Shown in pieces: positions 1,787-29,022 of a stretch of DNA of 64,000 nt. The notes below the pieces were generated by a model that saw nothing but the letters and a program-made list of their open reading frames with translations, did no database searches and had not been told where the DNA came from. How positions within the stretch are numbered: the stretch's first letter is position 1; each line of letters begins with the position of its first letter. The stretch spans positions 7,563,001 through 7,627,000 of the forward strand of contig NZ_CP109067.1 of the NCBI RefSeq assembly GCF_035917335.1, read 5' to 3'. Position numbers and translations under genes: made by a program. Source of the stretch: Micromonospora sp. NBC_01813 (GTDB taxonomy: Bacteria; Actinomycetota; Actinomycetes; Mycobacteriales; Micromonosporaceae).

Positions 1787-3058
1787 ATGGCCAGCACCAC
1801 CGACGACGTCACGCTGCGAACTGAGCTGCCTGCCGCCCGACCCGCGCCGACCCGCACCGGGTACGCCGACCACCGCGAGGACGCCGCCGTCATCGACGAT
1901 GATGCCCAGGCGGTGCTGGTCGCCCGAGAGCTCGCCGTCGAGTTCGCCGCCGGCGCCGCCGAGCGAGACGCCGAGCGGCGGGCACCGGTCGCCGAACTCG
2001 CCCGGCTCTCCGCCAGCGGACTGCTCGGCATCACCGTTCCAGCGGTCTACGGGGGTGCGGACGTCGCCGCGCAGACCCTCGCCGAAGTGGTGCGGCTACT
2101 CGCCAGCGCGGACCCGAACATCGCCCAGATTCCACAGAGCCACTTCACCTACGTCAACGTGCTGCGCCAGCAGGGATCCGACGAGCAGCAGCGGTTCTTC
2201 TTCGCCGAGATTCTCGCCGGCCGGCGGTTCGGCAACGCTCAGTCGGAGGCAGGCACCCGACATGTTCAGGACTACCGGACCCGGCTCACCGCCGACGGCG
2301 GCGGCTTCCTGCTCACCGGGGTCAAGCACTACAGCACCGGCGCGCTGTTCGCCGACTGGATTCCGGTCCTCGCCCGCGGCGACGACGAAAAGCTGTACGT
2401 CGCCTACGTCCCGGCCGGCGCACCCGGGATGACCATCCGCGACGACTGGACCGGCATGGGTCAGCGCACCACCGCCAGCGGCACCGTCGAACTCGATCGG
2501 GTGCGGGTGCCCGCCGATCGGGTCGTCCCACACCACCTCACCTTCACCGGCCCGCAACTGCACGGGGCGTACTCCCAACTCGTCCACACCGCGATCGACG
2601 CGGGCATCGCCCGCGCCGCACTGGACGAGGCCGGCGAGTTCGTCCGGACCAGGACCCGACCGTGGGCCGAGAGCGGCGTCGACCGGGCCGCCGACGACCC
2701 CCTGCTCATCCAGCGTTTCGGTGAACTCGCCGTCCAGGTGCGGGCGACCGAGGCGCTCCTCGTCGACGCGGCCCGGGCGATCGACACCGCTCGGGCCGCG
2801 CTCACCGAGGACAGCGCCGCCGCCGCGTCGATCGCGGTGGCGGTCGCCAAGGCGTTCGCCGACGGCACCGCCATCGAGGTGACCAGCGCGCTGTTCGAGG
2901 TCGGCGGCACCCGATCCAGTCTCGACCCGCTCAACCTGCACCGGCACTGGCGCAACGCGCGCACCCACACGCTGCACGACCCGGTCCGCTGGAAGCTGCA
3001 GCACATCGGGCGGTACGTGCTCAACGGCACCCGCCCACCCCGACACGGGCTGATCTGA
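1787..3058 (+). CDS. SfnB-family sulfur acquisition oxidoreductase (acyl-CoA dehydrogenase fold)
   Basis: This 423-residue protein has the acyl-CoA dehydrogenase fold and the SfnB/DszC-like pattern. The N-terminal helical part is followed by IAQIPQSHF, the FFFAEILAGRRFGNAQSE block typical of SfnB proteins, and a C-terminal LHRHWRNARTHTLHDP region that closes the flavin site. SfnB-type enzymes are thought to be FMNH2-dependent monooxygenases acting on sulfones or other organosulfur compounds. The start is clear, with AGGAGG four to five bases before the ATG. The FMN reductase gene follows 19 bases downstream, giving a two-component oxygenase unit. No SsuD-type sulfonate monooxygenase is present in the window, so this may be the desulfurising enzyme. 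The exact substrate is unknown. Confidence 0.82.
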   Translation: MASTTDDVTLRTELPAARPAPTRTGYADHREDAAVIDDDAQAVLVARELAVEFAAGAAERDAERRAPVAELARLSASGLLGITVPAVYGGADVAAQTLAEVVRLLASADPNIAQIPQSHFTYVNVLRQQGSDEQQRFFFAEILAGRRFGNAQSEAGTRHVQDYRTRLTADGGGFLLTGVKHYSTGALFADWIPVLARGDDEKLYVAYVPAGAPGMTIRDDWTGMGQRTTASGTVELDRVRVPADRVVPHHLTFTGPQLHGAYSQLVHTAIDAGIARAALDEAGEFVRTRTRPWAESGVDRAADDPLLIQRFGELAVQVRATEALLVDAARAIDTARAALTEDSAAAASIAVAVAKAFADGTAIEVTSALFEVGGTRSSLDPLNLHRHWRNARTHTLHDPVRWKLQHIGRYVLNGTRPPRHGLI

Positions 3059-3077
3059 TCCACGGAGGAGTACCCCC

Positions 3078-3638
3078 ATGTCCACCATCCTGGCCATCTC
3101 CGGATCGCCCTCCGCCACCTCGCGCACCGCTGCTGTGCTGGACCTCGTCTCCGCGACGTTGCTCGATGCCGGGCACCAGGTGCGGCTGTTGTCGGTGCGC
3201 GACCTGCCGCCGGAGGCATTGCTCGGCGCCGACCCGACCCATCCGGCGATCCGTACGGCAGCGACCGAGGTAGCCGCCGCGGACGCAGTGGTCGTCGCCA
3301 CCCCGGTCTACAAGGCGGCGTACAGCGGTGTGTTGAAGTCTCTGTTGGACCTGCTGCCGCAGTTCGCGTTCGCCGGCAAGGTCGTGCTGCCGCTGGCCAC
3401 TGGGGGCACGACCGCTCACGTGCTGGCCCTGGACTACGCGCTGCGGCCGGTGCTGTCATCGATGGGCGCCGAGCACGTCGTGGCCGGCTACTTTCTGCCC
3501 GAGCAGGCCCTGGGCCCGGTGGTGGCCGGCGGTCTGCGGGTGGAGCCAGCTGCGCGAGCGGGCCTGGACGACGTCGTCGACGGGTTCCTCGCCGCTCTGG
3601 AACGCCGACAGCCGCTGCCGATCCTGCTTGCCTCCTGA
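3078..3638 (+). CDS. ssuE: NAD(P)H-dependent FMN reductase (SsuE/MsuE type)
   Basis: This 186-residue flavodoxin-like reductase has the N-terminal phosphate-binding loop GSPSATSRT and the central TPVYKAAYSGVLKSLLDLLP motif of the SsuE/MsuE family. Such enzymes supply reduced FMN to oxygenases that release sulfite from organosulfur compounds. GGAGGAG lies just before the ATG. The gene follows the SfnB-like gene closely, so its reduced flavin probably serves that enzyme. It ends 11 bases from the convergent TSUP gene. Other FMN-dependent roles cannot be excluded. Confidence 0.85.
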   Translation: MSTILAISGSPSATSRTAAVLDLVSATLLDAGHQVRLLSVRDLPPEALLGADPTHPAIRTAATEVAAADAVVVATPVYKAAYSGVLKSLLDLLPQFAFAGKVVLPLATGGTTAHVLALDYALRPVLSSMGAEHVVAGYFLPEQALGPVVAGGLRVEPAARAGLDDVVDGFLAALERRQPLPILLAS

Positions 3639-3649
3639 GCATCGTGCGC

Positions 3650-4435
3650 TCAGCCGGCCAGCCGCAGCGCACCGAGGACGACCAGCACCGCCAGGCCGGT
3701 ACGCAGCAGTCGGTCCGGCAGCCTGGACGCGTGGCGCACGGCCAGCCAGGCCCCGAACAGTCCGCCGAAGCCGAGTGCCAGCCCGATCGGCCAGTGTGGG
3801 GTCTGCACCCGCGTGGCGCCGGCGAGGTCGGCGGCGGCGTAGGTGAGCAGCCCGGTGACCGACACGGTGAAGGTGGTGATCAGCGCCGCTCCGGAGACCC
3901 GACTCGTCGGCCAGCCGGTGATCAACAGCGCCGCTGGGGCGGCGAGGATCGCCCCACCGAGGCCGTAGAAGCCGCCGAGTGCGCCGCTGGCCAGCCCGGC
4001 GACCGCCAGTACGGCGGTCACCGCCGGCCCGGCCAGCGGCTGCGCAGACCGGCCGCCGCGCGGGCGAGGCAGCAGCAGCGTTGCCGCGACGGCGACGAGT
4101 AGTCCGGCGACCAGGTGACGGAAGACCGTCGAGTCACCGAGCCAGAAGATGTTGGCCAGCGCTCCGGCCACCGCCGCCGGTGCGGCAGCCCCGGCCAGCA
4201 GCAGCGCCAGCCGCCGGTCCAGGCTGTGCTGCCGCAGGTGTCGGGTGATCCCGGCCGGGGTGGAGACGATGTTGAACAGCAGGTTGGTCGCACTGGCGAC
4301 GGTCGGTGGCAGCCCGAACGCGGTGAGCAGCAGCGGTAGCAGCAGCAGTCCACCGGAGACACCGGTCGGGGTGCCCAGGGCCGCCGCCAACGCACCTGCG
4401 CCGGCGGCGGCCAACAGAATCCACGGATCGGTCAC
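3650..4435 (-). CDS. TSUP-family (TauE/SafE) membrane transporter
   Basis: This 261-residue protein has seven to eight hydrophobic segments. The N-terminal TPTGVSGGLLLLPLLL and the central GALGGFYGLGGAILAAPALL are the paired glycine-rich repeats of the TSUP (TauE/SafE/sulfite exporter) family. Family members move sulfite, sulfonates or sulfolactate across the membrane. It is the last gene of the rrf2-ssuABC operon, 12 bases after ssuC, so export of released sulfite or another sulfur anion is likely. The direction of transport cannot be read from sequence. Confidence 0.82.
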   Translation of the reverse strand: MTDPWILLAAAGAGALAAALGTPTGVSGGLLLLPLLLTAFGLPPTVASATNLLFNIVSTPAGITRHLRQHSLDRRLALLLAGAAAPAAVAGALANIFWLGDSTVFRHLVAGLLVAVAATLLLPRPRGGRSAQPLAGPAVTAVLAVAGLASGALGGFYGLGGAILAAPAALLITGWPTSRVSGAALITTFTVSVTGLLTYAAADLAGATRVQTPHWPIGLALGFGGLFGAWLAVRHASRLPDRLLRTGLAVLVVLGALRLAG

Positions 4436-4447
4436 GGATCGCCAGAT

Positions 4448-5356
4448 TCAGGACTGGGTGAGGCCCCAACGGCGGCGCAGCGCGTTGTCGGCCGCGTTGA
4501 AGGCGATGTCCACCAGGATGCCGATGATCAGGATCACGATGATCCAGGCCAGCAGCCGAGGGGCGTTGTTGAACTCCCGGGCACCCTGCATGAGCGAGCC
4601 GATGGACCCCTGCCCGGGGACGATGACGAGCAGCTCACCGGCCATCAGGCTGCGCCAGGCGAACGCCCAGCCCTGCTTGAGGCCGGAGACGAACGACGGC
4701 AGCGATGCCGGCAGGATCAGGTGCCGGTAGAGCACCAGCCCACGCATGCCGAGGGTCTTGCCGACCCGCAGCCAGGTGCGTGGCACGTAGTCGATGCCGC
4801 TGATCAGGCCGTTGGCGACCGATGGTGCCGCCCCGAGCACCACGACGAACATGATGGCGCTCTCGCTGATCTGGAACAGCAGGATCGCGAACGGGAACCA
4901 GACGATCGACGGCATGGTCTGCAGCCCGGTGATCATCGAGCCGATCGCCGCCCGCAGCGGCGCGAACCGGGCCACCGCGATGCCGACGACGGTGCCGATC
5001 GCCACCGCGACGGCGAAGCCGAACACCGCCCGCTGCATGGTGATGCCCACCGCCCGGGCGAAATCCGGGGTGGGAATCAGCTGTGCCATGTTCTGCAGCA
5101 CGGTCACCGGGTCCGGCAGCGCGTACGGGCTGCGCCAGCCGGACACGAAGACCAACTGCCAGGCGACCAGCACGATGCCGATCGCCGCCAGCTTCGGCCA
5201 CAGCGACCGCCAGATCCGCAGGCCCAGCTCGACCGGCCGCCGCCGGTCGCGGGTCGGCCCGAGCTCCAGCGCGTCCAGCCCGCTGACCTGCGCGGCGTTG
5301 CCGTCGCCGGTCGTGGAGGTCACGTCGTCAGCGGCGGTACGGGTCTCAGCGGGCAT
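4448..5356 (-). CDS. ssuC: Sulfonate-type ABC transporter permease (SsuC-like)
   Basis: This 302-residue inner-membrane permease has about six membrane spans and a long polar N-terminus (about 55 residues). The cytoplasmic coupling loop near RTWLRVGKTLGMRGLVLYRH and the preceding PSIVWFPFAILLF are typical of SsuC/TauC/NrtB permeases. Its start overlaps the end of ssuB by 11 bases. With ssuA and ssuB it forms an importer for alkanesulfonates or related organosulfur compounds. The nitrate/taurine/sulfonate members of this family are hard to tell apart, and the sulfur neighbours decide the call. Confidence 0.85.
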   Translation of the reverse strand: MPAETRTAADDVTSTTGDGNAAQVSGLDALELGPTRDRRRPVELGLRIWRSLWPKLAAIGIVLVAWQLVFVSGWRSPYALPDPVTVLQNMAQLIPTPDFARAVGITMQRAVFGFAVAVAIGTVVGIAVARFAPLRAAIGSMITGLQTMPSIVWFPFAILLFQISESAIMFVVVLGAAPSVANGLISGIDYVPRTWLRVGKTLGMRGLVLYRHLILPASLPSFVSGLKQGWAFAWRSLMAGELLVIVPGQGSIGSLMQGAREFNNAPRLLAWIIVILIIGILVDIAFNAADNALRRRWGLTQS

Positions 5357-6140
5357 GTCGGGACACCTCCTCGCGGAGCCGGTCGGTGATGGTCGCGGAC
5401 AACCCGGCCACCTCTGACGAGTCGATGCGTCGTGGTCGGGGCTGCTCCACCGGGAACTCCTCGATGATCCGGCCGGGTCGGCTGCTGAGCAGGATCACCC
5501 GGTCGCCGAGCCGCACCGCCTCGCGGACGTTGTGGGTCACGAACAGCACGGTGAGCCGCCGTTCCCGCCAGATCCGCTCCAACTCGTCGTGCAGCACGTC
5601 GCGGGTCATCGCGTCGAGTGCGCCGAACGGCTCGTCCATCAGCAGCACGTCGGCGTCCTGGGCGAGGGCACGGGCCAGGGCGACCCGTTGCCGCATCCCA
5701 CCGGAGAGTTCGTGTGGTCGTTTGTGCCCGAATCCGCCGAGCCGGACCGTCTCCAGTAGCCCGGCGGCCTGCTCCCGCCGCTCCTGGCGGCCAACGCCGC
5801 GCAACCGCAGCGCGATCTCGACGTTGCGGGCAACGGTCAGCCAGGGAAAGAGGGCGGATTCCTGGAACATCATCGCCACCCGGTGTCCGCGGGTGTCGAC
5901 CGTGCCGGCACTGATCTCGTCGAGTCCGGCGACCAGCGACAGCAGAGTGCTCTTGCCGCACCCGGAGGCGCCGAGCAGGCAGACGAACTCGCCACGGGCG
6001 ACGGTCAGCGACACCCCCTCGAGAGCGAGCAGCGCGGAGCTGCCCCGTCCGTAGATCTTGCGTACGCCGTCGAGGCGGACGGCCGCGTCGCCGCGGCCGT
6101 CCCGTCGCTCGAGGGCGGTCGCCGGGTCGGCGCCGCTCAT
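5346..6140 (-). CDS. ssuB: Sulfonate-type ABC transporter ATPase (SsuB-like)
   Basis: This 264-residue ATPase has Walker A GASGCGKST (about residues 57-65), Q-loop MFQES (91-95), signature LSGGMRQR (145-152), Walker B DVLLMDEP (164-171) and the switch histidine in FVTHN. All catalytic motifs are intact. The ATG shares one base with the ssuA stop (TGATG), and the 3' end overlaps ssuC, so the importer subunits are translationally coupled. The length fits SsuB/TauB proteins. Confidence 0.9.
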   Translation of the reverse strand: MSGADPATALERRDGRGDAAVRLDGVRKIYGRGSSALLALEGVSLTVARGEFVCLLGASGCGKSTLLSLVAGLDEISAGTVDTRGHRVAMMFQESALFPWLTVARNVEIALRLRGVGRQERREQAAGLLETVRLGGFGHKRPHELSGGMRQRVALARALAQDADVLLMDEPFGALDAMTRDVLHDELERIWRERRLTVLFVTHNVREAVRLGDRVILLSSRPGRIIEEFPVEQPRPRRIDSSEVAGLSATITDRLREEVSRHAR

Positions 6141-7207
6141 CAGCCCGATCCCTCCCCGTTGACCGTCGGCTTGCCGGCGGCGGTGAGTAGCTCGTTGAGC
6201 AGGTCGAGGTGGTAGATGCCGGTCAGGTCGACCGGGTCGAGCAGACCGGCGTCCTGGGCGTGTTCGGCGCTGCCGTACAGCGACGAGGCGATCGGGTCGA
6301 CGGTGAAGGTCAGGTTGTCGATCGACGCGGTGAGGATCTCGTCGGTCAACCGGTTTCCGGTGAGCGCCTCAAGGTGGTCGTTGGCCACGGTGGCCGCTGC
6401 CGCCGGCTCGGTGGCCAGGTAGTCGATCGCGGCGAGGTGGCCTGCCAGCAGGTTGCGCACGACGTCCGGGTTGGCTGTCAGGAACTCCTTGCTGACGATC
6501 AGGTGGGTGGTGACGAACTCGCCGTCGGGCCACTCGTCGCGCTCGTCGACCAGGACCGTCGCGCCGTGTTCGATGATCAGCCGGCTCAGGTGTGGCTCGG
6601 GCAGCCAGGCGCCGTCGATCGCGCCGCTGGTGTACGCGGCGACGACCTCCGAGTTGGCGGTCGGCAGGATCGACACGTCGCCGCCGCCGGAGGTGTCGGT
6701 GGCGAAGCCCTGTTCCTTGAGCCAGTGCCGCAGCGCCACGTCCTGGGTGTTGCCCAACTGGGGGGTGGCGATCTTCTTGCCCCGCAGGTCCGCCACCGAG
6801 GTGATTTCCGGCTTGACGACCAGGGCTGCTCCGCCGCTGGTGACGCCGGAGATGATCTGCAGTGCCTCACCTTTCGACTGGGCCCAGCCGGTGATCGCCG
6901 GGTTGGGGCCGATGTAGGTGGCGTCGATCGCTCCGGAGAACAGTGCCTCGATCGCGGACGGTCCGGCGTTGAAGGTGGTGGTCTCCAGCTGTACGCCGCC
7001 GAGAGCCTCTTCGAAGATCTTGTTCTGGACGCCGACCAGTGCCGGTGCGTGGGTGATGTTCGGGAAGTAGCCGAGCCGCAGCGTGGTGGCCTGGTTTTCG
7101 CCTGCGGCCTGGGCCGACCCGTCGTCCCCGCCGCACGCCACCAGTGTGCCGCCGGCGAGTAGCGCGACGGCTGCGGCGGTGGTCAGCCGGCGGATGGGTG
7201 AACTCAT
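6140..7207 (-). CDS. ssuA: Sulfonate-binding lipoprotein (SsuA-like)
   Basis: This 355-residue substrate-binding protein has a basic N-terminus, a hydrophobic stretch and the lipobox LVAC (lipidated Cys about residue 25), followed by a flexible GGDDGS linker. TLRLGYFPNITHAPALVG, ATYIGPNPAITGW and the VDGAWLPEPH region are characteristic of the SsuA/NrtA/TauA family (NMT1-like fold). It presents the ligand to SsuBC at the outer face of the membrane. Its ATG overlaps the rrf2 stop (ATGA), so regulator and importer are made from one mRNA. Confidence 0.9.
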   Translation of the reverse strand: MSSPIRRLTTAAAVALLAGGTLVACGGDDGSAQAAGENQATTLRLGYFPNITHAPALVGVQNKIFEEALGGVQLETTTFNAGPSAIEALFSGAIDATYIGPNPAITGWAQSKGEALQIISGVTSGGAALVVKPEITSVADLRGKKIATPQLGNTQDVALRHWLKEQGFATDTSGGGDVSILPTANSEVVAAYTSGAIDGAWLPEPHLSRLIIEHGATVLVDERDEWPDGEFVTTHLIVSKEFLTANPDVVRNLLAGHLAAIDYLATEPAAAATVANDHLEALTGNRLTDEILTASIDNLTFTVDPIASSLYGSAEHAQDAGLLDPVDLTGIYHLDLLNELLTAAGKPTVNGEGSG

Positions 7208-7683
7208 CGTCGTCCTCCGAGAGGTTCTCTATCTAGTTGATCGACTTCAAGTGTTTTATGTGTGCTGGTCTGAGCGGTCTGATTGCGGTAGGTCAGCAGG
7301 TCGGCCAGGCTGATGCCGTCGACGACCCGTTCGAGCGCGTCGTTGACGGCGAGCCAGACATCCCGCAGGCCGGTTGCCACGCCGTCATAGGTCGCGGCCT
7401 CGACGGGTAGCCCGCGCACCGTGGTCAGGGTGCCGGTCATCGCCCGCAACACCTCGCCGACGGTGATCTTGGCCGCCGGCTTGGTGAGCTGGTAACCGCC
7501 CAGCCCGCCCCGATGGCTGTGCAACAGGCCGGCTCGGCGCAGGTCGAGCAGGATTCCCTGCAGGAAGCTCAGTGGCAGTTCCTGCTGCTTGGCCAGCGTC
7601 GACGCCTTGACCAGCTCGGTAGGCTCGGCGGCGATCGAGAGCATCGCCCGCAGGGCGTAGTCGCTGCGTGCGGAGACGAACAT
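7204..7683 (-). CDS. Rrf2-family repressor without cysteines (CymR-like)
   Basis: This is a 159-residue winged-helix regulator of the Rrf2 family. SARSDYALRAMLSIA opens the domain, LPLSFLQGILLDLRRAGLL is the recognition helix region, and GGYQLTKPAAKITVGEVLRAM forms the wing. It has no cysteines, so it cannot hold the Fe-S cluster of IscR/NsrR and resembles the cysteine-metabolism repressor CymR class. I start it at ATG 7683 (GGGA before it), although an in-frame ATG lies at 7722. A perfect dyad 43 bases upstream, repeated at two other sulfur promoters, is its probable operator. It heads the ssuABC-TSUP operon. Confidence 0.85.
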   Translation of the reverse strand: MFVSARSDYALRAMLSIAAEPTELVKASTLAKQQELPLSFLQGILLDLRRAGLLHSHRGGLGGYQLTKPAAKITVGEVLRAMTGTLTTVRGLPVEAATYDGVATGLRDVWLAVNDALERVVDGISLADLLTYRNQTAQTSTHKTLEVDQLDREPLGGRR

Positions 7684-7725
7684 CGTTGTCCCTTCCCGGT
7701 GCGCATTGGCTGCTAAACCCATGTG

Positions 7726-7822: not shown

Positions 7823-10800
7823 TCAGTGGAGCGGCGCTGGCAGCCGTCCGTCGATCAGCTCCGCGACAGCAGTGTCGCCCAGATGCAGCGGGGCCGCCGC
7901 GATCTTCGCCGCGCGAGCCGCCGACCAGTACGCCGCCGCCAGCTCCGGGTTCACCAGGCCGTGCACCAGCGGCAGGTCCGGCCGGTCCGCCTGCAGCAGC
8001 GACTCCAGCTGACAGGATGCCACCGTGTCCGGCAGCGCACCGCGTGCCGCGTACCCGGCGACCGCCGCCGCCGGCAGACCGGCGGGCAGGACGCGCCGCA
8101 CCGGGCCGCAGGAGAGCAGCCCGCCGCCGACCACCAGCACGTCGCCGTCGCGGCGCATCCGCCGCAGCGCGCCGGCCGTACTCACACAGTGCGGGAACGA
8201 GTCGTCGACCAGCACCGTCCCCGGGCGCAGCCGATCCACCTCGACGATCTCGGTGGCGCTGCTCACCGCCGCGACGATGGTCGCCGCCGCGTACACCTGC
8301 GCTGCGGCCGTCGGCGTCGAATCGGCCCAGACTAGCTCACCCCGGTAGCCGAGGCGCCGCAACCGGTCCGGGTAGTCGGCCAGCCGGCGCCGACTGGCCG
8401 GCAGATCGGCCAGCACGATCTGTGGCGGATGCGGCCCACCCTGGCTCAGCAGCAACTCCAGCGCCGACCGGCCGATCGAGCCCAGTCCGACCACGGCGAG
8501 CGGACCGGCGGCGAGATCACGCCCGGCGGCGTCGAGCGCCGCCAGCGTGGTCAGCACCACCGACGTGGCGGTCGCCGCGTGCCCGGTCGTCACCCGTACC
8601 GCCGAATTCACCTGCCGCAGTACGTCGAAGCCGTAGCCGGTGAACGACGGCACCAGCCCGGCGAGCGACACACAGCGAGCTCCCTGGCCCGCCGCGAGCT
8701 CGACCGCCCGAGCCACGACACCGGCGACACCGGTGCCGGGCCTCCCGGTGGATCCGGCGGCGAGTTCGTCGGCGAACAGCGGCAGGCAGACGAAGCCGGA
8801 CCGCCCGTACGGGGTCACCAGCTCCTCCAGCAGGCGGGGCGCGCCGTCCGGGAACAGCAGCTCGCGGATCTGCTCCCGGGGCAGCGCCGCCGCCGGCACC
8901 CCGGCCAACCTCGCCAACTGGGCCGGCGCCGGCAGGTAGCCGACGATCGCCGCGTCCAGCGCGGCCCCGGGCCGGTCGCTGGCGGCGGCCTGCGGCGCGG
9001 GCCGGGCCGCGGCGATCAGGTCGGCCGCCATCGCGGCGACGAAGTCGGCGAAGCGCTCCGGGTCCAACGCCTGCGGAGCGGCCCGGACGGTGACCCGCAG
9101 CCCGGCGTCGACCGGCCGGGCGGTCAACAGCACATCGGTGCCGACCGGCGGCGGCTCCAGTTCGCTGTCGCCGTCGTCCCAGCGCAGCGTCAACCCGCCC
9201 GGCGCGCCGTCTCCAGCCGGTCCGATTCCGGTGAGTCCGATCCCGGTGAAGTCGAGAGAGCTGAAGATGAACTGCGCCCCGGCCAGCATCGCCGCCGGCC
9301 CACCGCCCGAGGACTCGGCCGAGGTCAGCTCCCCTTCAGTGCCGTACCGCCGGGCCGCGGCGACCTCGCCGGCCACCTGGGCCAGATCGTCGCCGAACGC
9401 CCGCCCGGCCCCGGCGATCCGCAACGGCAACAGCACCGCGCACGGTCCGAAGAGCCGATGCAGGTCCGGCAGCGGGTGATCCCGGCCGGTCACCGTCAGA
9501 CCGATCACCAGGTCGTCCTGGCCGGTCAGCCGGGCCAACCCCCGGCGGTACGCGGTGAGCACCGGCGCGTACCCGCTGGTGCCCGCGGCAGCGGCCAGCC
9601 GGCTCAGCGCGGCGGACACCGTACCGTCCAGAGTGAACCCGGCGGTCTGCGCCGGCCTGGTGACTGCGGTCGCCGCGGACCCGGTCGAGGTGCGCCCGGT
9701 CGAGGTGCGCAGCATCGGCGGCCGGTACGGCTGCCCGAACCGTTCCCGCCACCAGTGGTGCGCCTGCGGATCCGGATCGTCCGGCCGTTGCCGCAACCAG
9801 GCCACGTAGTCACGCAACGTCGTGCGTAGCGGCGCGACGTCGACTGGCTGCCCGGCGGTCAGCCTGTCGTGCAGCGCCAGCAGTTCCTGGCCGAGCAGGG
9901 CGGCACTGTAGCCGTCACCGATCAGATGGTGGGCGTGCACCAGCAGGACGTGCTCGTCCGGCCCGACCGTCAACACCAGCAGCCGCAGCAACGGCCAGGC
10001 CCACGGCTCGAGCGACCGCTGACGTTCGAGCGCCACCCGGTCGTCGACCAGATCGGCCGACTCGATCGTCTCGAACCGCACCGGCAGCCGCAGCGTCGCC
10101 GGCAACTCCTGCTGCACCGCCGGCCGGGCCCCGGCCGGGAACACCGTACGCAGCATCGGATGCCGGGCCACGACGACGTCGACCGCCTGCTGGAAGCGAC
10201 GCCGGTCCAGCCGGCCGGACAGCCGCAGCCGGGCCAGCCAGGTCGAGCTGCTGCCCGGCGCGACAGCCTCGGCGAGCAGGAAGCCACGCTGGGCGGGGGC
10301 CAGCGGAAACGGCCGTGGATCGTAGGCCACCGTCGACGTATCTGGAGCCGACGTATCCGGAGCCGACGTTTGCGCTGTCGGCACCCCGGCGGCGGCTTCG
10401 TCGATCGCCGCGGCCAGCCCGGCCAGGGTGCGGTGGTCGTAGATCACCGTCGGGCGGGGCATGACCGGGAAGCGTTCCCGCAGCCGGGCGAATACGTCGA
10501 GGGCCACGATGGAGTCGCCACCGATGGCGAAGAAGTCGTCGTCGCGGTGCACAGCGGGCAACCCGAGCACGGTCTGCCACACCTGCGCCAACTGCCGCTC
10601 GGTGCCGGTACGCGGTGCTTCACCAGCGACAGGCAGCGGTGCCTCACCAGCAGCCGGCAGCGGTGCCTCGCCGGTTGGCTCCGGCTCCTCGCCCGGCAAC
10701 TCGGCGAGTAGTTGCCGGTCCACCTTGCCGCTGGCGGTCGTCGGCAACTCCCGTACCAACTCGATCCGGGCCGGAACCCACGACGGCGGCAGCCGGTCGG

Positions 10801-13800
10801 TGAGGTGCCGGCGCAGGTCGGCGGCGGCCGTCGTGGCGGCCGCGGCCGGGTCCCGCAGCTGCGCGTACGCGACGAGCCGGGGATACGGCTGCGTCTGGAG
10901 CAGCACCACCGCCGCACTGACCGCCGGGTGGCTGCCCAGCGCCGACTCGATCTCACCCGGTTCGATCCGGTGACCGTGCAACTTCACCTGGTCGTCCAGC
11001 CGGCCGAGGAACTCCAGGTCCCCGGTGGCTCCGATCCGGACCCGGTCGCCGCTGCGGTACCAGCGCCGACCGTCGCGGTGCACGAACGCCGCCCCGGTCA
11101 GCTCCGGCTCGTCCAGGTAGCCGGCGGTCAGCCCGGGGCCGGCGATCTGCAACTCGCCGGCCTCGCCCGGCGGGCAGGGCCGCCCAGCGGCGTCGACGAC
11201 GGCCAGCGTCGCGCCCGCCACCGGCCGGCCGATCGGCACCCGCCGTAGGCCGTCGGCCGGCCGCCGGTCGATCAGGAACCAGGCGGCGTTGATGGTCGCC
11301 TCGGTCGGCCCGTACAGGTTGGTGATCCGGTGCCCGGGGCCGAACAGGTCGAACCAGCGCCGTACCTGGCCGGGGGGCAGCGCCTCCCCGCCGACGTGGA
11401 TCCAACGCAGCGCCGACAGGTCGGGTCGCCGCCCCTGGGCGGCCCGCCGCCCGGCCGCCGCCAGTAACTGCCCCCACACCGTGGGCACCGAACTCCAGAC
11501 CGTCAACCGGCCCTGCTCGATCCGGTCGAGCAAGTCGTCGGGATCGCGCAGCAGCCGCGGTGCCAGCACGACGACCGTCGCGCCGACCAGCAGCGGTGCC
11601 AGCAGTTGCCGGACCGAGGCGTCGAAGCCCAGCGACGAGGTCTGCGCCAGCCGGTCCCCGCCGTGGTAGCCGAAGGTGTCGACCGCCCAGTGTAGATAGT
11701 TTGCCATCGAGCGGTGGCTGACCGGCACGCCCTTCGGTCGGCCGGTCGACCCCGAGGTGAAGATGACGTACGCCGTACCGTCGGGGTCCGGCGTAGCCGC
11801 ACCGTCCACTGCACCGTCCACTGCACCGTCGACGGTCGCGTCGATCGTCGTCTCGTCGGCGATGACCGCGTCGAGGTCGACCGTCCTCAGCTCGGCCAGT
11901 GCGTTCGCCACCGCTGCGGATTCGGCGTCGTGCAGCAGCACCCGCACGCCGCAGCGCCGCAGCGCGTCGCCGTGGCGGGTCGCCGGGTGGGTGACGTCCA
12001 GCGGCACCCAGCCGGCTCCGGCGCGCAGCACCCCGACGATCGCGGCCACGGCGGCGGGTCCGCGTGCGGCCAGCAACCCGACCAGGTCGCCAGGTTGGAC
12101 CCCGTGCCGGCGTAGCGTGCCGGCGACCCGGTCGGCGGCAGCATCCAACTGTCCGTACGTCATCCGCAGCGCGCCCGCTTCGACCGCGACGGCGGCGGCC
12201 TGCTGGCGGCACACCTGCCCGATCCGGTCCACGACCTGCTCCACCACCCGGGACGCCGGTTCAGCGCCGGGCAGCGGCGGGGCGGCCAGTGCGGCGAGTT
12301 CGGCCAGGTGCTCGGCGGCCAGCCCGGCCACGGTCGCCCGGTCGAGCAGCGCCACCGGATGGTTCCAGGCGAACCGGAGCCGCTGCCCGTCCTGCCAGCA
12401 GAGCAGTCCCAGCTGGGTGCCGGCCGAGGCGGTGCCGGCGGCGTCCGGCGACACCTGGACCGGGCAGTCCGGATCCGCGGCGACCGGGAAGCGGGCGAAG
12501 CTGAAACTGGCCGGGCTGGCGGTGGCCAGGCGTCCGCCGTGCCGGGGCAACGAACGGGCCAGATCGATCGCGTCGACCGAGCCGTGCCGCTGTGCGACCA
12601 GCCAGGCGGCCCGTACTCGGGCGGCGAGTTCGACCGGCGGCTCGGCCGGGTCGACGTCGACGGTGACCGGCAGGGTGTCGGCGAACGGTCCGACGACGCG
12701 GTCGATGCCGGGCAGCCGGGCGTCGCGGCCGGCCCGGGCCACCGACACGGTGACGGTGCGCTGCCCGCTCCACCGGGCGAGGCACCGGGCGTACCCGGCG
12801 AGCAGGAGGTGGAACAGCGACACCTCGGCGGCGGCGGCCCGCCGGGTCAGCGCGGCCACGGTGTCCGGGTCGACGGCGACCTGATGGGTGGCGTACGGCG
12901 GCGCGGGCTGCGCCGAGGCGTCGCGCCACGGTAGCCGCAGCCCGGCCGGCCACGACGCCAGGGTTTCCCGCCAGAAATCAAGATCCTGCGGCCGCGCGGT
13001 GGTCGCGGCCGCCAGTTGGTCGCGGAACGCCGTCGGCAACGGCGCAAGTTGCGGTACGCGGCCGGCGGCGAGCGCGCCGTAGGTGTGCCACAGTTCCTCG
13101 CTGAGCACACTGAGGCTCACCCCGTCCCCGGCGGCGTGGTGCAGCACCAGCACCAACTGGGCGAAGGCGGAGTCGGGGTCGGCGCGGACCAGCACGGCGC
13201 GCAGCGGCGGCCGGCGGGTCAGGTCGATCGGCTCGTTGCACAGCCGCTCGGTGAGCTGATCGACGTCCTCGGTGCCGCCGTGGATCTCGTACCAGTCGGT
13301 CAGCGGCACCGGCGGGCCGACCAGTTGGCGTGGTGCGCCGGTGCCGTCGACGAGCCACCGCATCCGCAGCATCGGGTGTCGGCCCATCACGTACGCGAGG
13401 GCCTGTCCGAGCAGTTCCTCGTCGAGCGGCCCGGTGATGGCGTGGCGGACGAACCCGTACGCGGGCACCTGCGGGTAGAGCTGGCGCAGGGTGTGGAACG
13501 CCAGCTGCACCCCGGACAGCGCGAACAACTCCACGTTGTCGTCGCTGCCCACGGTGACCGGCATCGGCACCGCCGCAGCCGGCGACACCACTGTGGATGA
13601 CGGCGTCGGGGCGGCGAGCCGGTCGACGAGTTCGGCGATGGTGCCGTGCTCGAAGAACAGGGTGGTGGGCAGCGGCTGGTCGAGTTCTTCTTCGAGGGTC
13701 TTGACCAGGTCGATGGCGGTCAGCGAGTCCAGGCCGAGGGAGAGGAACGGCGCGTCGTCGGCGATCTGCGCCGGGTCGCGCTCCAGCGCCTGGGCCAGCA

Positions 13801-16800
13801 GCCGGCGGATGATCGCCGCCACCGCGTCAGGCGCTTGACCACCAGATGCGGGCACAGCCGGGCTCGCCGACGCATCCGGCGTGCGGGCGGCGACGGTGTC
13901 CATGGCACGTTCGGTGGTGGCGGTGGTTGCAGTGGTGGCGGTGACTGCGGTCAGCCGGGCGATCACCAGGTGGGCGGTGGGTCGGCGTAGCGCCGACCGC
14001 AGGGCCGGCACCGCGTCGGTGACCGGCAGCGCCGGCAGGCCACGGGCGGCCAGCCGCGCGGCGATCCCCGGATGGGCGGCCATGCCTGCGTCGGCCAGCG
14101 CCGAGAAGGCGACGGTACGCAGCGGCCCACCGGCTGCCCGCTCGATGGCGGCGAACGTGTCCAGGAAGGCGTTCGCCGCCGCGTAGTCGCCGACCGCGCC
14201 GGCGAGGCCGGGCAGCAGGGCGCTGACCGAGGAGAACGCCACCACGACCGGCGGGCGTCGGCCGTGCCGGCGTAGCGCCCGGATCAGCAGGAAACTGCCC
14301 CGTACCTTCGGGGCCAGCACGGCCTGCAACTGCGCCACCGGCTTGGACCGCAGCGTGCCGGGTCGGACCACCCCGGCGGCGTGGAACACCCCGCTGAGGT
14401 CGGGTAGCCCGGCGATCAGCGCGTCGACGTCGTCGGCATCGGTGACGTCGCAGCGGCGGTAGTCGACCTGCGCGCCGAGGGCACCCAGCCGGTCGAGCAG
14501 TCCGGCCGGGGCGGTGGCGGCGCGCCCGGCCAGCACGATCCGCCGGCATCCGTCGGCGGCGAGGTCCGCGGCGAGCGCGGCGCCGACTCCGCCGGTGCCA
14601 CCAATGATCAGCTGTACGCCGTCGACGTCGACCGGATCCTTCTCGTCTACCGTGGACGGCTCGGCCGGGGAGAGCTGGCGGCCCAGCCGCTGCCCGGCCC
14701 GCCACGCCACCGGGCTCGCCTGCACCGCGCTCGGCTGCATGTCGCTTGCCAGCACTGCCGCGTCGAGTTCGGCCACCAACGCCGCCAGTCGGGCCGGTAC
14801 GTCGTCGGCGCGCGACAGATCCAACCCGCGTACCATCCGGTCCGGGTGTTCGTCGGCGAGCGCTGCCGTCAGCCCGGTGATCAGGCTCTGCACCGGATCC
14901 GGTTGCTCGCCGGCCGCGCCGGTGCAGACCGCGTCCTGGGTGACCACCAGCAGCCGACCGCCGCCGTCGGGCAGTGCGGCCACGAACTCGGCGAACTCGC
15001 GCAGGGTGGCGTCGACCACCGAGTCCAGCTGAACCACATCGGCCGCGCCGGCCGCGCCGAGGCCAGCCGGATCAGCCAGGTACACCGTCACCTCGGCCGC
15101 GCCGAGGCCGGCGGCGATGCCTGCGGTGAGGCCTGCGGCGATGCCGGCGGTGGGGCCTGCGGTGAGGTCGACACCGCGCGCGGTCAGCAGGTCGCGCAGC
15201 CCGTCAGCGAGTGGGCCGCCGACGGCGGCACCCGGCCCGGTCAGCTGCACCGAGACGGGCATCGCACCGGGCGGAGCCGGGTGCGGCGACCAGCTGACCT
15301 GATGGATCAGCCCGGCGAGGTCACTGGCCGGACCCGCGTCCGAAGCGGCAGCGGGCAGCCAGTGCCGTCGCCGCTGGAACGGGTACGTCGGCAGGGCGAC
15401 CCGCTGCCATCGGCCGCCAACTATCCGGGCCCGGTCCAGCATCGGGGTCCGGTCCAGCATCGCTACCCGGTCCAGCGCCGCGCCGTGCTGCCACAGTGTG
15501 CCGGCCAGGCCGAGCAGGCCGCTGTCGTCATCCACCGGGGTCAGCAACGTCAACCCGGCGGGGCCCGATCCGGGCGACGCGTCGCGCACCGCCCCGGCCA
15601 GGGCCTGCGGTTCGACCCCGACCACGATGTCGTACCCCTGGTCGAGCAGCTCCCGTAGCCGGGCCGGGAACCCGGGTGCGCCATCGGGGCAGCCGGCAGC
15701 CTTCGCGACCGCCTCGGCGACGGGCAGTTCCCCGGTCACCGCCGCTGCCGCCAACTCGCCGGCACCGTCGCCGAGTACGGCGTCCGGGGTGACACCCCAG
15801 TCGGCGAGTTGTCCGCAGACCGCCGCCGCGTACACCACCAGCAGCGGCGCGGCGACACCGGCGGCGGCCCGTCGGCCAGCGGTGGCGGCGTCGCTGTCGG
15901 TGTCGGTGTCGCCGAGCAGCCAGTGGCGCAGCGGCTGCCCGGCCACGTCGCCGACAGCCGCGCAGGTCTCGTCGACGATGCGGCGGAACACCGGCATCGA
16001 CCGGTACAGCGCGCGGCAGGACTCGGCCGGCGGCACGGACGTGCCGGTGAACACGAACGCCGTCCGGGGTCGCCGTACCACCTCGGTGAGCTGGCCGGAC
16101 GCGGCGGCGGTGAGCCGGGCGGCGAGCGCGGCGGTGCTGTCGGCGACGACGGCCACCCGGTGCGGCCGGTCGTCCCGGGCGGTGTCGACCGTCGCGCACA
16201 CCGCGCCCGGATCCAGGTCGGGGTGGTCGGTCAGATGTCCGGCGAGGGCCCGCAGCGACTGGCGCAGCGCGGTTTCGGTCGCCGCTGAGCAGGTCGACAG
16301 GTACGCCCCGGCACCGTCCGGTGAGGTAGCGGACGTCGGGGTCGGCGCGGCCTGCTGCAGGATGACGTGCGCGTTGGTGCCGCCGAACCCGAACGCGTCG
16401 ACCCCGGCGACCAACGGACCGTCGTCGGCCCAGTCCCGTACCTCGGTGACCACCTCGAACCCGGCCCCGGCCAGGTCCAGCCGGGGTGACGGCGTGTCGA
16501 CGTGCAGCGACGGCGGCAACTGGCGGTGCCGTAGCGCCAGCGCCACCTTGACCAGGCTCGGCATCCCGGCGGCGTTGAGCAGGTGACCGAGGTTCGACTT
16601 GACCGAGCCGAGCAGCCTCGGTCGGCCGTCCGGACGCGGCGGGAAGGCGTACGCCAGCGACCGCACCTCCACCGGGTCGCCGAGCGGCGTGCCGGTGCCA
16701 TGCGCCTCCACGTACGACACCGTCGCCGGGTCGACGCCACTGTCCCGGTACGCCTGCGTGATCACTTCCCGTTGGCGCAGCGGGTTCGGTGCCATCAGGC

Positions 16801-22721: not shown

Positions 22722-22809
22722 TACCAAGGTCGGCATGATCATCTCTGTCGTGCTGCGACTGTCGCAAGTGATCTGCCTAGCTATCCCTTGTGCTGAGTGC
22801 GGGTGCGTC

Positions 22810-22826
22810 GGAACCTAAACGGTTCC
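22810..22826 (+). promoter_or_regulatory. Dyad abutting the hsdM start
   Basis: GGAACC (22810-22815), five bases, then GGTTCC (22821-22826) directly touches the GTG at 22827. It could be an operator or a hairpin that limits initiation. If hsdM instead starts at GTG 22863 it lies in the leader. Confidence 0.35.
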
Positions 22827-24398
22827 GTGTCCACCACCACTCAGCCCCTGGGACATGACTCCGTGATCACTGGTGAACTGAAGAGCAAGATCGACCGCAT
22901 CTGGGACGCCTTCTGGTCGGGCGGTATCTCCAACCCCCTCGAAGTGATCGAGCAGATTACGTATCTGCTGTTCATCCGCCGTCTCGACGAGTTGCAGACC
23001 CTCGCCGACAACCGGGAGCAGCGCCTTGGCCCCGATGGGGTCCGGCACATCTACCCCGAGGGAGAGGATCCGCAGGGTCGCCCGTACAGCGAGCTGCGCT
23101 GGTCGTACTTCCGTGACATCGACCCACGGAAGATGTACGAGATCGTCGGGGAGCACGTCTTCCCGTTCCTGCGCACCCTGGGTGGCGACGGGTCGGCGTA
23201 CTCGCGGCACATGAAGGACGCCCGCTTCACCATCCCGAACCCGGCGCTGCTGGGGCGGGTCGTCGACATGATCGGCGACATTCAGATGGAGGACCGGGAC
23301 ACCAAGGGTGACCTGTACGAGTACATGCTCAGCAAGATCGCCACGGCGGGCCACAACGGCCAGTTCCGTACGCCCCGGCAGATCATCAACCTGATGGTTG
23401 AGATGATCGAGCCCGGCCCGAAGGACCGCATCTGCGACCCCGCCTGCGGCACCGGCGGCTTCCTGGTCGGTGCGGCCGAGTTCATCCGCCGCCGGCACCC
23501 GGCCGCACTGCACGACCCGGTGCTGCGGGATCACTTCCACCAGGACATGTTCCACGGCTTCGACTTCGACAGCACGATGCTGCGGGTCGGCAGCATGAAC
23601 ATGCTGCTGCACGGGGTGGAGAACCCGGCCATCGACTACCGTGACTCGCTCGGTGACGACGTCAGCGACGAGACCGACGCGTACTCGGTGATCCTGGCCA
23701 ACCCGCCGTTCGCCGGCAGCCTGGACTACGAGCGCACCTCGCGGATCCTGCAGCAGACGGTCAAGACGAAGAAGACCGAGCTGCTGTTCCTCGCGCTGTT
23801 CCTGCGGCTGCTGCGCAACGGCGGCCAGGCGGCGATCGTCGTGCCCGACGGGGTGCTCTTCGGCTCCAGCAAGGCGCACAAGGAGCTGCGCCGGATGCTG
23901 GTCGAGGACCAGAAGCTCGACGCGGTGGTCAAGCTGCCCGGTGGGGTCTTCAAGCCGTACGCCGGGGTGTCGACCGCGATCCTGTTCTTCACCAAGACCA
24001 ACAGCGGCGGTACGGGCAACGTCTGGTTCTACGAGGTGAAGGCCGACGGCTGGAGCCTCGACGACAAGCGCAGCCCGCTGCTGCCTGAGGCGAAGCTCGG
24101 CCCGGTGCCGGCCGAGGCGCTGACCGCCGAGGAGCACGCCAAGAACAACCTGCCGGACGTGCTGGCCCGCTGGAAGCAGCGCGACAGTGCAGAGCGGGAG
24201 CGGGCTCGTACCGAGCAGTCCTTCTGCGTGCCGAAGGACGACATCGTCGCCCAGGACTACGACCTGAGCCTCAACCGCTACAAGGAGATCGTGCACGAAG
24301 AGGTCGAGCACCGGCCGCCAGCCGAAATCATCGCCGAACTCGAACGCCTCGAATCCGAGATCCAGCAGGGCCTCGCCGACCTCAAGGGGCTGCTGTGA
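22827..24398 (+). CDS. hsdM: Type I restriction-modification DNA methylase subunit HsdM
   Basis: This is a 523-residue N6-adenine methyltransferase subunit. The N-terminal helical domain contains ITGELKSKIDRIWDAFWSGG and ISNPLEVIEQITYLLFIRR. The SAM-binding motif DPACGTGGFLVG lies near residue 204 and the catalytic NPPF near residue 292. The C-terminal ERLESEIQQGLADLKGLL helix is typical. The start is uncertain: GTG 22827 is used here, but many family members begin at the ITGELKS segment, so GTG 22863 is an equal choice. It overlaps hsdS by four bases. All key residues are intact, so modification should be active. Confidence 0.93.
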   Translation: MSTTTQPLGHDSVITGELKSKIDRIWDAFWSGGISNPLEVIEQITYLLFIRRLDELQTLADNREQRLGPDGVRHIYPEGEDPQGRPYSELRWSYFRDIDPRKMYEIVGEHVFPFLRTLGGDGSAYSRHMKDARFTIPNPALLGRVVDMIGDIQMEDRDTKGDLYEYMLSKIATAGHNGQFRTPRQIINLMVEMIEPGPKDRICDPACGTGGFLVGAAEFIRRRHPAALHDPVLRDHFHQDMFHGFDFDSTMLRVGSMNMLLHGVENPAIDYRDSLGDDVSDETDAYSVILANPPFAGSLDYERTSRILQQTVKTKKTELLFLALFLRLLRNGGQAAIVVPDGVLFGSSKAHKELRRMLVEDQKLDAVVKLPGGVFKPYAGVSTAILFFTKTNSGGTGNVWFYEVKADGWSLDDKRSPLLPEAKLGPVPAEALTAEEHAKNNLPDVLARWKQRDSAERERARTEQSFCVPKDDIVAQDYDLSLNRYKEIVHEEVEHRPPAEIIAELERLESEIQQGLADLKGLL

Positions 24399-25594
24399 CG
24401 ACGGCAACCACAGTACGACTCGGTGAGGTCGCGTCCATCAACCCGAAGCTGCCCCAGCGGCCTGCTCCGGATGACGCTGTGTCCTTCGTGCCTATGTCAG
24501 CCGTGGATCAGGGGACAGGGATCGTCTCTGACTCCGAAACCCGATCTTTCGCTGAGGTGAGTAAGGGTTACACGACATTTCTCGACGGAGACATCCTGGT
24601 CGGCAAGATTACTCCGTGCTTCGAGAACGGCAAGATCGGGCATGCCAGGCTAAAGAACAAGGTCGGGGTAGGCTCGACCGAATTTCACGTTGTCCGGCCG
24701 GAGTCCGGACGTGCCGACGCGCGGTACCTGTTGCACATGTTGCGGCAGCCGTGGATCCGCGTCGCGGGTGAGCGCAGGATGACCGGTAGTGCGGGTCAGC
24801 GTCGTGTCCCCCAGGAGTTCGTAGCAGATCTCAAAGTCCGCCTTCCATCGCTGGATGAGCAGCGGCGGATCGCGGAGTTGCTGGACCGCATCGACACCCT
24901 GCGCGACACACGTACGCGTGCCCTGAACCAACTCGACGAACTGTCACGCGGGATCTTCATGGAGATGTTCGTGCTGGATGGCCCAAGCCATCCGGTGGCC
25001 AGCGTTGGGGATATTGCGAACCGATCGAAGGGCTCGATCAGGACGGGGCCTTTTGGTAGTCAGTTGCTGCATTCTGAATTCGTTGACAGTGGCGTCGCTG
25101 TTCTTGGGATCGACAATGCGGTCGCTAATGAGTTTAGGTGGGGAGAGCGGCGGTACATTAGTGAGGACAAGTATTGGCGGCTGAGTCGATATCGCGTCTA
25201 TCCGGGCGATGTGATTATTACAATCATGGGCACATGTGGGCGTTGCGCGGTCGTTCCTGCTGGAATCCCGTTAGCAATCAATACGAAGTATCTGTGTTGC
25301 ATCACCCTGGATCATGAAAAATGTCTCCCCGAATACTTGCATTCCTACTTTCTGATGCACCCGGTTGCTCGTGAGTACCTAAATCGGGCGGCGAAGGGTG
25401 CAATCATGTCCGGGCTCAACATGGGAATTATCAAGGACATGCCGGTGTGTTTGCCGTCGACCAGTGACCAGCGCCAGTACGTGGCCCGCCGATCGGAGGT
25501 TCGGCGTATCCAAGAGGTCCAGCAGAGGGCGTTGGGGGAGTTGGATGCGTTGTTCGCGTCGTTGCAGCACCGGGCGTTTCGGGGGGAGCTGTGA
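24395..25594 (+). CDS. hsdS: Type I restriction specificity subunit HsdS
   Basis: This 399-residue protein has two target-recognition domains. The first begins RLGEVASINPKLPQR and the second VGDIANRSKGSIRTGPFGS. Each is followed by a conserved helix, SLDEQRRIAELLDRIDTL after the first and DQRQYVARRSEVRRIQEVQQ after the second. The second domain (bases about 25010-25490) has much lower GC and different codon use from its surroundings, a sign of domain replacement by transfer. It overlaps hsdM and hsdR in the usual one-operon layout. The target sequence cannot be predicted. Confidence 0.92.
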   Translation: MTTATTVRLGEVASINPKLPQRPAPDDAVSFVPMSAVDQGTGIVSDSETRSFAEVSKGYTTFLDGDILVGKITPCFENGKIGHARLKNKVGVGSTEFHVVRPESGRADARYLLHMLRQPWIRVAGERRMTGSAGQRRVPQEFVADLKVRLPSLDEQRRIAELLDRIDTLRDTRTRALNQLDELSRGIFMEMFVLDGPSHPVASVGDIANRSKGSIRTGPFGSQLLHSEFVDSGVAVLGIDNAVANEFRWGERRYISEDKYWRLSRYRVYPGDVIITIMGTCGRCAVVPAGIPLAINTKYLCCITLDHEKCLPEYLHSYFLMHPVAREYLNRAAKGAIMSGLNMGIIKDMPVCLPSTSDQRQYVARRSEVRRIQEVQQRALGELDALFASLQHRAFRGEL

Positions 25595-28500: not shown

Positions 28501-29022
28501 ACCGAGGTACGCCTGACCGGTCTCGACGTCGGCACAGACTTCGAGCGGTTTCGGGAGAAGGTACGGGTGCACCTGCGGACCCATGAGGACCACGTGGCGT
28601 TGCAGAAGCTGCGGCGTAACCGGCAGCTGTCGCCGATGGACCTGGCCGAGTTGGAGCGGATGCTGGTCGACTGCGGTGGTAGTGAGCAGGAGATCGCCCA
28701 GGCCCGGCGGCGGGCCAACGGCCTCGGGTTGTTTCTGCGCTCGCTCGTCGGGCTGGACCGTCAGGCGGCGACCGAAGCGTTCGACGAGTTCACCGCCGGC
28801 CGTAACCTGGACGCCGGGCAGCTCGACTTCGTCAACATCATGATCGAGCACCTGACCCAGAACGGGGTGATGGAGCCGAGCCGGCTCTACGAGTCGCCGT
28901 TTACCGAGCTGGCACCGGCCGGCCCGGACTCGGTCTTCCCTTCGGCGGACGTCGACAAGCTGGTCAGCATCCTGCGTACCGTCAACGCGAGGGCGGCAGT
29001 GCCGGAAGCTGACGTCGCCTGA
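25591..29022 (+). CDS. hsdR: Type I restriction endonuclease subunit HsdR
   Basis: This 1143-residue translocating nuclease starts at GTG 25591, overlapping the hsdS stop. An N-terminal DUF4145-like domain (about 1-130) comes first. The nuclease motif follows (YVDYVLWGDD then IVEAK near 254-277), then the helicase with Walker A TGAGKT (about 386), DEAH (about 483), GLTATP (about 507) and QMIGRGTRLC (about 715), and a helical C-terminal domain. All motifs are intact. Its last 28 bases recur at 31049-31077, downstream of a serine hydrolase and a GNAT gene, which suggests that segment was inserted at the hsdR 3' end. Confidence 0.93.
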   Translation: MTAASNFAFLRAEWPDLFDEAQRVEQHTFADPRTACIYARRCLEHLVKWLYRADEALGRPYRGNLAARIAEPALKNLVGEHLHAKMDVLRLQGNEAVHGSRRVSERDALVVCQDLFHLLYWLARTYTRDQAAVPSSTLVFDAALLPKPTVSRVKTRAELRALAEQFAAQEQQEEREAAAELDGDLDGQIKELRRQVAAAKARNSRLPDTHDYNEQQTRDLFIDLLLHEAGWPLDQARDTEFQVSGMPNQTGIGYVDYVLWGDDNRPLAIVEAKSARRHAIDGQNQARLYADALEQTYGRRPVIFYTNGYDICLWDDVRYPYRKVQGFYTKDQLELLIQRRSTSQRLADTSIDQRIVNRHYQQRAIRRIAHTFEVDGQRKALVVMATGAGKTRTTIALVDLLQRANWVKRVLFLADRLALVQQATNAFKTHLPDTVTVNLSKDRNRTDGRVYVATYPTMMGLINELDEGGSRRFGPGYFDLVIIDEAHRSVYQKYGAIFDYFDSLLVGLTATPKDEVDRNTYRLFNLENGVPTDAYGLQDAIRVGYLVPPRAVSVAIRYPRHGIRYDDLPEHEKEEWDGLEWGEEEIPDRVDAQAINQWLFNADTVDKVLELLMTRGHRVAGGDRLGKTIIFAKNTRHAEFIAERFNASYPQPRGEFAQVVLHKDRFAQTLIDKFGTPDKEPHIAISVDMMDTGIDVPEVVNLVFFKQVRSKTKFWQMIGRGTRLCNDLFGPGQHKKDFLVFDFCENFEYFGHSPARTEGSTAASLSERIFKAKVELISQLDQRLPAGTVIDGDGTRSESGLRWDVANELRGLVAGMKLENFLVRPHRQAVERYADPANWQRLTPAASEEISHELARLPSTVRPTGDEEAKRFDLMILRLQLARLCAGGRFDRIKADVQAIAAALLEQTNIPAIRAEVELLDQVAAEEWWRDVTLPMLEGLRRRVRSLVKLVEKSKRAIVYTDFEDQINDVTEVRLTGLDVGTDFERFREKVRVHLRTHEDHVALQKLRRNRQLSPMDLAELERMLVDCGGSEQEIAQARRRANGLGLFLRSLVGLDRQAATEAFDEFTAGRNLDAGQLDFVNIMIEHLTQNGVMEPSRLYESPFTELAPAGPDSVFPSADVDKLVSILRTVNARAAVPEADVA

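Follow-up and report, generated by a model that had tools for sequence, protein, structure and literature searches.

The last 377 or so residues of a megasynthase encoded on the reverse strand of the window (the whole stretch of 64,000 nucleotides that was analysed) are a domain of the acyl-ACP reductase (AAR) type. Sequence and fold comparisons favour its placement within the AAR superfamily as a sister group of the domain called TAD, which ends the carmabin synthetase of cyanobacteria, and it probably serves in chain release. The domain is predicted to take the completed chain onto Cys3887 and to release it in an NAD(H)-linked reaction, most likely as a primary amide, a reading to which we give a nearly even chance; between an amide and an aldehyde, the amide is the somewhat likelier product.

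The open reading frame runs through 3949 amino acids uninterrupted by a stop, and its product appears to couple one fatty acid and one amino acid. The following features were located.

7823-19672, reverse strand: megasynthase gene, 3949 aa, GTG start, with the order FAAL-ACP-KS-(AT remnant)-KR-ACP-C-A-PCP-C-TAD/AAR-like
17993-19615, reverse strand: fatty acyl-AMP ligase (FAAL) domain, approximately residues 20-560, with PRK09192 and FadD21-type matches
17633-17875, reverse strand: first acyl carrier protein (ACP), LGGSSL, Ser ~639 (Pfam and motif)
16313-17581, reverse strand: ketosynthase (KS), active-site motif DTACSS (Pfam and motif)
15695-16057, reverse strand: acyltransferase (AT) remnant covering 113 of the 319 Pfam positions, with GDGAGE in place of the catalytic GHSxGE
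14093-14620, reverse strand: ketoreductase (KR) (Pfam)
13616-13810, reverse strand: second acyl carrier protein, LGLDSL (Pfam and motif)
12263-13540, reverse strand: first condensation domain (C1), HHAAGDG (Pfam and motif)
10724-12211, reverse strand: adenylation (A) domain (Pfam), specificity code DARSHGLIN, the same or nearly the same in 76 orthologs
10418-10615, reverse strand: peptidyl carrier protein (PCP), IGGDS (Pfam and motif)
8993-10345, reverse strand: second condensation domain (C2), HHLIGDG, with no carrier protein after it
7823-8956, reverse strand: TAD/AAR-like terminal domain, residues ~3573-3949 plus stop (homology and fold comparison)
8579-8581, reverse strand: His3698 of TTGH, TAD-type by alignment (Asn in AAR and PigE)
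8471-8488, reverse strand: dinucleotide loop GLGSIG, residues 3729-3734, in the alignment opposite AAR 162-168 and the NAD site of TAD
8405-8407, reverse strand: Asp3756 after Rossmann strand 2, by alignment predicted to select NAD(H) over NADP(H)
8186-8206, reverse strand: DDSFPHC, residues 3823-3829, by alignment a TAD-type signature missing in AAR and PigE
8012-8014, reverse strand: Cys3887 (codon TGT), predicted acyl-enzyme nucleophile, equivalent to AAR Cys294 and TAD Cys2238
8003-8005, reverse strand: Glu3890 of CxxE, by alignment common to PigE and AAR but replaced by Ser or Ala in TAD proper

Pfam matches in the megasynthase comprised two AMP-binding, three PP-binding and two condensation domains, the KS, the KR and an acyltransferase fragment, and none fell in the last ~385 residues. 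The first-pass annotation had denied this tail a usual release domain, and this is borne out, as no thioesterase or thioester-reductase family of Pfam is found in residues 3565-3949; with zero profile matches, both a thioesterase and an SDR reductase were rejected. SDR-type thioester-reductase (R) domains share the terminal NRPS position with the window domain, but belong to a different fold family and form no cysteine intermediate. The AAR motif order proposed instead was recovered in full: GYGFDVLRQVN (3679-3689), TTGHAATA (3695-3702), VVGLGSIG (3727-3734), VLVDDSFP (3820-3827), VVGGGLLS (3847-3854) and Cys3887 within ASCQLES, the latter aligned with the acyl-enzyme cysteine of AAR and invariant in the aligned actinobacterial relatives. 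The AAR-type domain starts near residue 3573 (nucleotide ~8956), slightly ahead of the position 8900 claimed for it, and is preceded, as that annotation had it, by an intact condensation domain rather than by a carrier.

An AlphaFold2 model of residues 3565-3949 (pLDDT 89.6, pTM 0.90) superposes on the AAR structure with Z 26 over 317-320 residues at 19% identity, and on the carmabin TAD structures with Z 43.8-44.5 over 357-370 residues (Foldseek, VIA-align), the best superposition having Z 44.5, 368 residues, rmsd 2.5 and 27% identity. A phmmer search of the same residues against PDB placed 9E4X/9E4S on top (E 6.3e-39), followed by PigE with E 1e-6, and gave no match to AAR, while a profile of 27 relatives reached 9E4X at E 5e-61 and AAR at E 2.7e-5. 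The AAR model TIGR04058 was matched by 16 of the 27 relatives (best E 2.5e-9) but not by the window domain at E 0.1, and its curated cut-off was exceeded in no genome of the window's genus. The best NCBIfam match of the window domain was the PigE model NF053554 (E 1.2e-12, 47 bits against a cut-off of 850); the SbnB model TIGR03944 gave E 0.0097. The AAR-like reading proposed earlier holds for fold, motif order and cysteine, but the nearest kin is the carmabin-type TAD and not AAR. Further fold matches at Z ~13 were to amino acid dehydrogenases, SbnB and formate dehydrogenases. Membership in the ornithine cyclodeaminase/SbnB or shikimate dehydrogenase families was rejected, the SbnB superposition (Z 13.6, 184 residues) being partial and far below those of TAD and AAR.

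Cys3887 is common to AAR, PigE, TAD and all aligned relatives. According to PDB titles ("TAD from Carmabin Biosynthetic Pathway"), the TAD was crystallised free, with NAD, with NADH and as a Cys2238-dephospho-CoA disulfide; chain numbering and the aligned ranges leave a single candidate for this Cys2238, the cysteine opposite Cys3887. In the alignment, Cys3887 and the predicted NAD(H) site match the reactive cysteine and the cofactor site of TAD. TAD also has the equivalents of His3698, Asp3756, Asp3824, Ser3825, His3828, Cys3829 and His3930, which neither AAR nor PigE possesses. Glu3890, in turn, occurs in all aligned members of the window family, in AAR, in PigE and in standalone AAR-like proteins, and is replaced by Ser or Ala in five TAD-type sequences: the carmabin TAD, a Pantoea plasmid homolog, a C-A-PCP-TAD module (G368) and two free-standing TADs. 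In AAR, the NADPH phosphate is bound by R189, R193 and R314 (PMC7089970). The invariant Asp3756 falls into the R189 region, where the local alignment is gapped; since it stands where AAR has an arginine for the NADPH phosphate, the predicted cofactor of the terminal domain is NAD(H), in agreement with the NAD- and NADH-bound TAD crystals.

The carmabin TAD (PDB 9E4S, 9E4U, 9E4X, 9E50, 9E56) and its counterparts in VatR (vatiamide) and HcaD (hectoramide) lie, like the window domain, at the end of an NRPS. The carmabin TAD resembles the window domain in its full-length fold, the cysteine at the catalytic position, the NAD site of GxGxxG and Asp, TTGH and DDSxPHC; it differs in having CxxS, whereas the window family has CxxE and forms a separate clade, residing, unlike the carmabin-type TAD, in one-gene actinobacterial FAAL-PKS-NRPS proteins. 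In HcaD and VatR the PCP is immediately followed by a terminal domain that is presumed to offload via terminal amidation and was called a putative amidating (ammonolysis) domain with mechanism and enzymology not studied (PMC10949194); the window domain, in contrast, follows a condensation domain. Carmabin A is listed among terminal-amide products (PMC10949194) and has a C-terminal amide (PMC6164609), and from these statements on hectoramide, vatiamide and carmabin we infer that "TAD" stands for terminal amidation domain. Cyanobacterial AAR (TIGR04058; 6JZQ/6JZU/6JZY/6JZZ) shares with the window domain the fold, the motif order, the position of Cys294 and CxxE, but, besides the low identity of 19%, has TTGN for TTGH, a GATGDIG loop and the NADPH-binding Arg189, lacks DDSxPHC, and is a free-standing enzyme working with aldehyde deformylating oxygenase (ADO), while the window domain is fused to a megasynthase. 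The N-terminal domain of PigE from prodigiosin biosynthesis (NF053554, 4PPM) belongs to the same superfamily and has its cysteine in a CMAE context; however, it is fused to an aminotransferase and has neither TTGH nor DDSxPHC, and the window domain scores far below its equivalog cut-off.

The superfamily has other members elsewhere. Plasmid pCN101 of Pantoea stewartii encodes a free-standing TAD-like protein, annotated as hypothetical, with 45% identity to the carmabin TAD (L133, 7578-8867); it lies in an NRPS/PKS cluster that also encodes an NAD+ synthase, a penicillin acylase and a MupA/Atu3671 monooxygenase. A separate deep clade consists of free-standing TAD/AAR-like proteins that have CxxE and DDSxPYC (L134, 7644-8840, on a plasmid of Streptomyces sp. 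NBC_00470, and L155, 11592-12911), the plasmid copy adjoining ACP and ketosynthase genes. An actinobacterial NRPS module with the hectoramide order C-A-PCP-TAD lies downstream of PKS and NRPS genes (G368; L148, 14173-18678). Free-standing TADs occur in two different families, represented by G404 (L150/L151), near two AMP-dependent ligases, a carrier protein, a PLP-dependent enzyme and an FAD oxidoreductase, and in G557 (L153/L154), which looks similar. Finally, free-standing AAR-like proteins with TTGN and CMAET occur outside cyanobacteria, in small-genome Actinomycetota (L093-L104).

In the phylogenetic tree, AAR and its standalone relatives are set apart at 100/99, and the window family (98/99) and TAD proper (95/87) are joined at 95/94, with CxxE changing once. 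The AU test did not formally reject grouping of the window family with AAR (p 0.06); therefore, the placement as sister to TAD is favoured, not proven.

The domain order FAAL-ACP-KS-AT-KR-ACP-C-A-PCP-C-TAD within one gene is common, as far as the contigs extend, to loci of Streptomyces, Actinoplanes, Couchioplanes, Nonomuraea, Microtetraspora, Herbidospora, Ornithinimicrobium and Nocardioidaceae, a few of them being cut short, split or broken. In the window's genus, all seven genomes carry the megasynthase gene; counting strong matches, it occurs in about 28 of 201 genomes of its family and about 43 of 296 Streptomyces (~14%); it was also found on a Streptomyces megaplasmid without biosynthetic neighbours. 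No partner genes are common to the Streptomyces loci, and the neighbours vary within the window's genus. All 76 orthologs compared have one of three adenylation codes, DARSHGLIN, DARSHGLVN or DARSQGLIN; to our knowledge, DARSHGLIN is no recognised amino-acid code. Those Streptomyces orthologs that were examined have an intact AT, with GHSVGE or GHSIGE, whereas in the window's genus the AT has lost its catalytic serine (GDGAGE) or is deleted, and in Actinoplanes lutulentus the serine is likewise lost (GHGAGE) (loci L110, L113, L125, L038). This points either to an acyltransferase that serves the protein in trans or to an abandoned elongation step. Three Streptomyces (G548, G582, G772) retain only fragments of the terminal domain, short or broken, apparently as a result of gene decay.

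In the preferred course, the FAAL would activate a fatty acid, the KS would extend it once with malonate and the KR would reduce the product, the AT acting in cis in Streptomyces and probably in trans in the window organism; C1 would then join the 3-hydroxyacyl chain to the single amino acid selected by the A domain. The resulting N-(3-hydroxyacyl)-aminoacyl chain would pass from the PCP to Cys3887 as a thioester beside bound NAD(H). By analogy, this step would be the same as in AAR, where the acyl group is transferred to Cys294 and an NADPH hydride then yields the aldehyde (PMC7089970). The most likely exit would be a primary amide, as in carmabin, formed by direct ammonolysis or by a redox-neutral NADH/NAD+ route. 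C2 might take up a small amine supplied in trans, or the chain might skip it; either C2 would act before the terminal domain, or the PCP would have to get past C2 to that domain. The aldehyde release that the first-pass annotation had derived from the likeness to AAR does not follow from it, because the nearest kin, TAD, belongs to a primary-amide pathway.

Reduction is nevertheless a possibility to be taken seriously, if one that we hold with rather low confidence: the chain on Cys3887 would receive one NADH hydride and leave as an aldehyde, whose later fate might be to remain free, to form a ring with an amine or the 3-hydroxyl, or to undergo further reduction. The kinship with TAD argues for the amide. 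CxxE, which TAD proper has lost but which the window family has in common with PigE, AAR and standalone AAR-like proteins, argues for reduction; the AAR superfamily fold (Z 26), the complete AAR motif order and the precedent of acyl-Cys294 followed by hydride transfer from NADPH (PMC7089970) point the same way. Sequence and fold are, however, far nearer to TAD than to AAR, TTGH and DDSxPHC are TAD-type, the known TAD pathways give an amide, and the genome has no ADO gene. The amide, for its part, has to reckon with the hypothetical status of TAD amidation itself (PMC10949194), with the retention of the CxxE of true reductases where the five TAD-type sequences have lost it, with a condensation domain between PCP and terminal domain that hectoramide and vatiamide enzymes do not have, with an AU test that allows grouping with AAR, and with the absence of a conserved ammonia-supplying partner gene.

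That C2 itself performs the release, coupling the acyl-amino acid on the PCP with a free amine or alcohol or with another molecule of its own kind, and with the TAD-like domain supplying or modifying the nucleophile or acting on another thioester in trans, is improbable in our estimate. C2 is intact and stands straight after the PCP, with its HHxxxDG motif kept in 78 of 78 orthologs; the TAD fold is similar to SbnB and to amino acid dehydrogenases as well (Z ~13), and free-standing TAD-like proteins adjoin ACP/KS or ligase genes. Yet no gene for a second substrate is conserved, and the conservation of Cys3887 and its surrounding motifs equals that of the C2 motif, a pattern in keeping with direct acyl chemistry. 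Still much less probable is that the domain is a non-catalytic relic, decayed or kept for structure: the AT of the same protein did decay in the genus of the window, and the domain is broken in some Streptomyces, but it is present in seven of seven genus genomes, and the cysteine, NAD loop, TTGH and DDSFPHC are kept in ~80 orthologs from several actinobacterial families, which differ from the window domain at about 45% of positions. An epimerisation role of C2 was rejected on its C-type motifs (FGPCAVLLPLR region) and on its top PDB profile kin, chains of PvdL and bacitracin synthetase. A model of the 850-aa C2-TAD segment, made with a rigid unit in view, reached pTM 0.53 and did not fix how the two domains are arranged.

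The fold and one close relative, TAD, were already known. In the literature searched, no description was found of the CxxE clade, the C-TAD order or the one-gene assembly line of actinobacteria, nor any known product or publication for the megasynthase. It is conceivable, though doubtful, that the CxxE clade represents a third functional type, fused to a megasynthase, dependent on NAD(H) and cysteine and associated with a terminal C domain, which would release a lipo-amino acid reductively or as an amide via a bound aldehyde or hemiaminal, in a manner undescribed for AAR or TAD; if so, one gene would be the route to a widespread actinobacterial lipid. Release domains set the reactive end of a natural product, and the window domain ties a crystallised but biochemically obscure cyanobacterial domain to the AAR chemistry of the alkane pathway. 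Its mixed residues, a TAD-type site with an AAR-type CxxE, open the question of amide versus aldehyde to point mutation. As the gene is lone and apparently self-contained, has one A code and occurs in ~14% of the sampled Streptomyces, its product is likely to be a common lipo-amino acid, which could be had by moving one gene.

Beside the megasynthase, at 1787-7722, the window contains a sulfur/sulfonate-type arrangement of genes for an Rrf2 regulator, an NMT1-like ABC transporter, a TauE exporter, an FMN reductase and an acyl-CoA dehydrogenase-like enzyme, found in just one other genome of the genus. On the other side lies a type I restriction-modification system (HsdM, HsdS, HsdR; 22797-29022); relatives of HsdM and HsdR occur near the megasynthase in four of the seven genus genomes, the window included. 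Two GNAT acetyltransferase genes with near-identical Pfam matches are located ~2 kb apart (30374-30907 and 32927-33457, reverse strand), and the GNAT family is also represented near the megasynthase locus in four other genomes of the genus.
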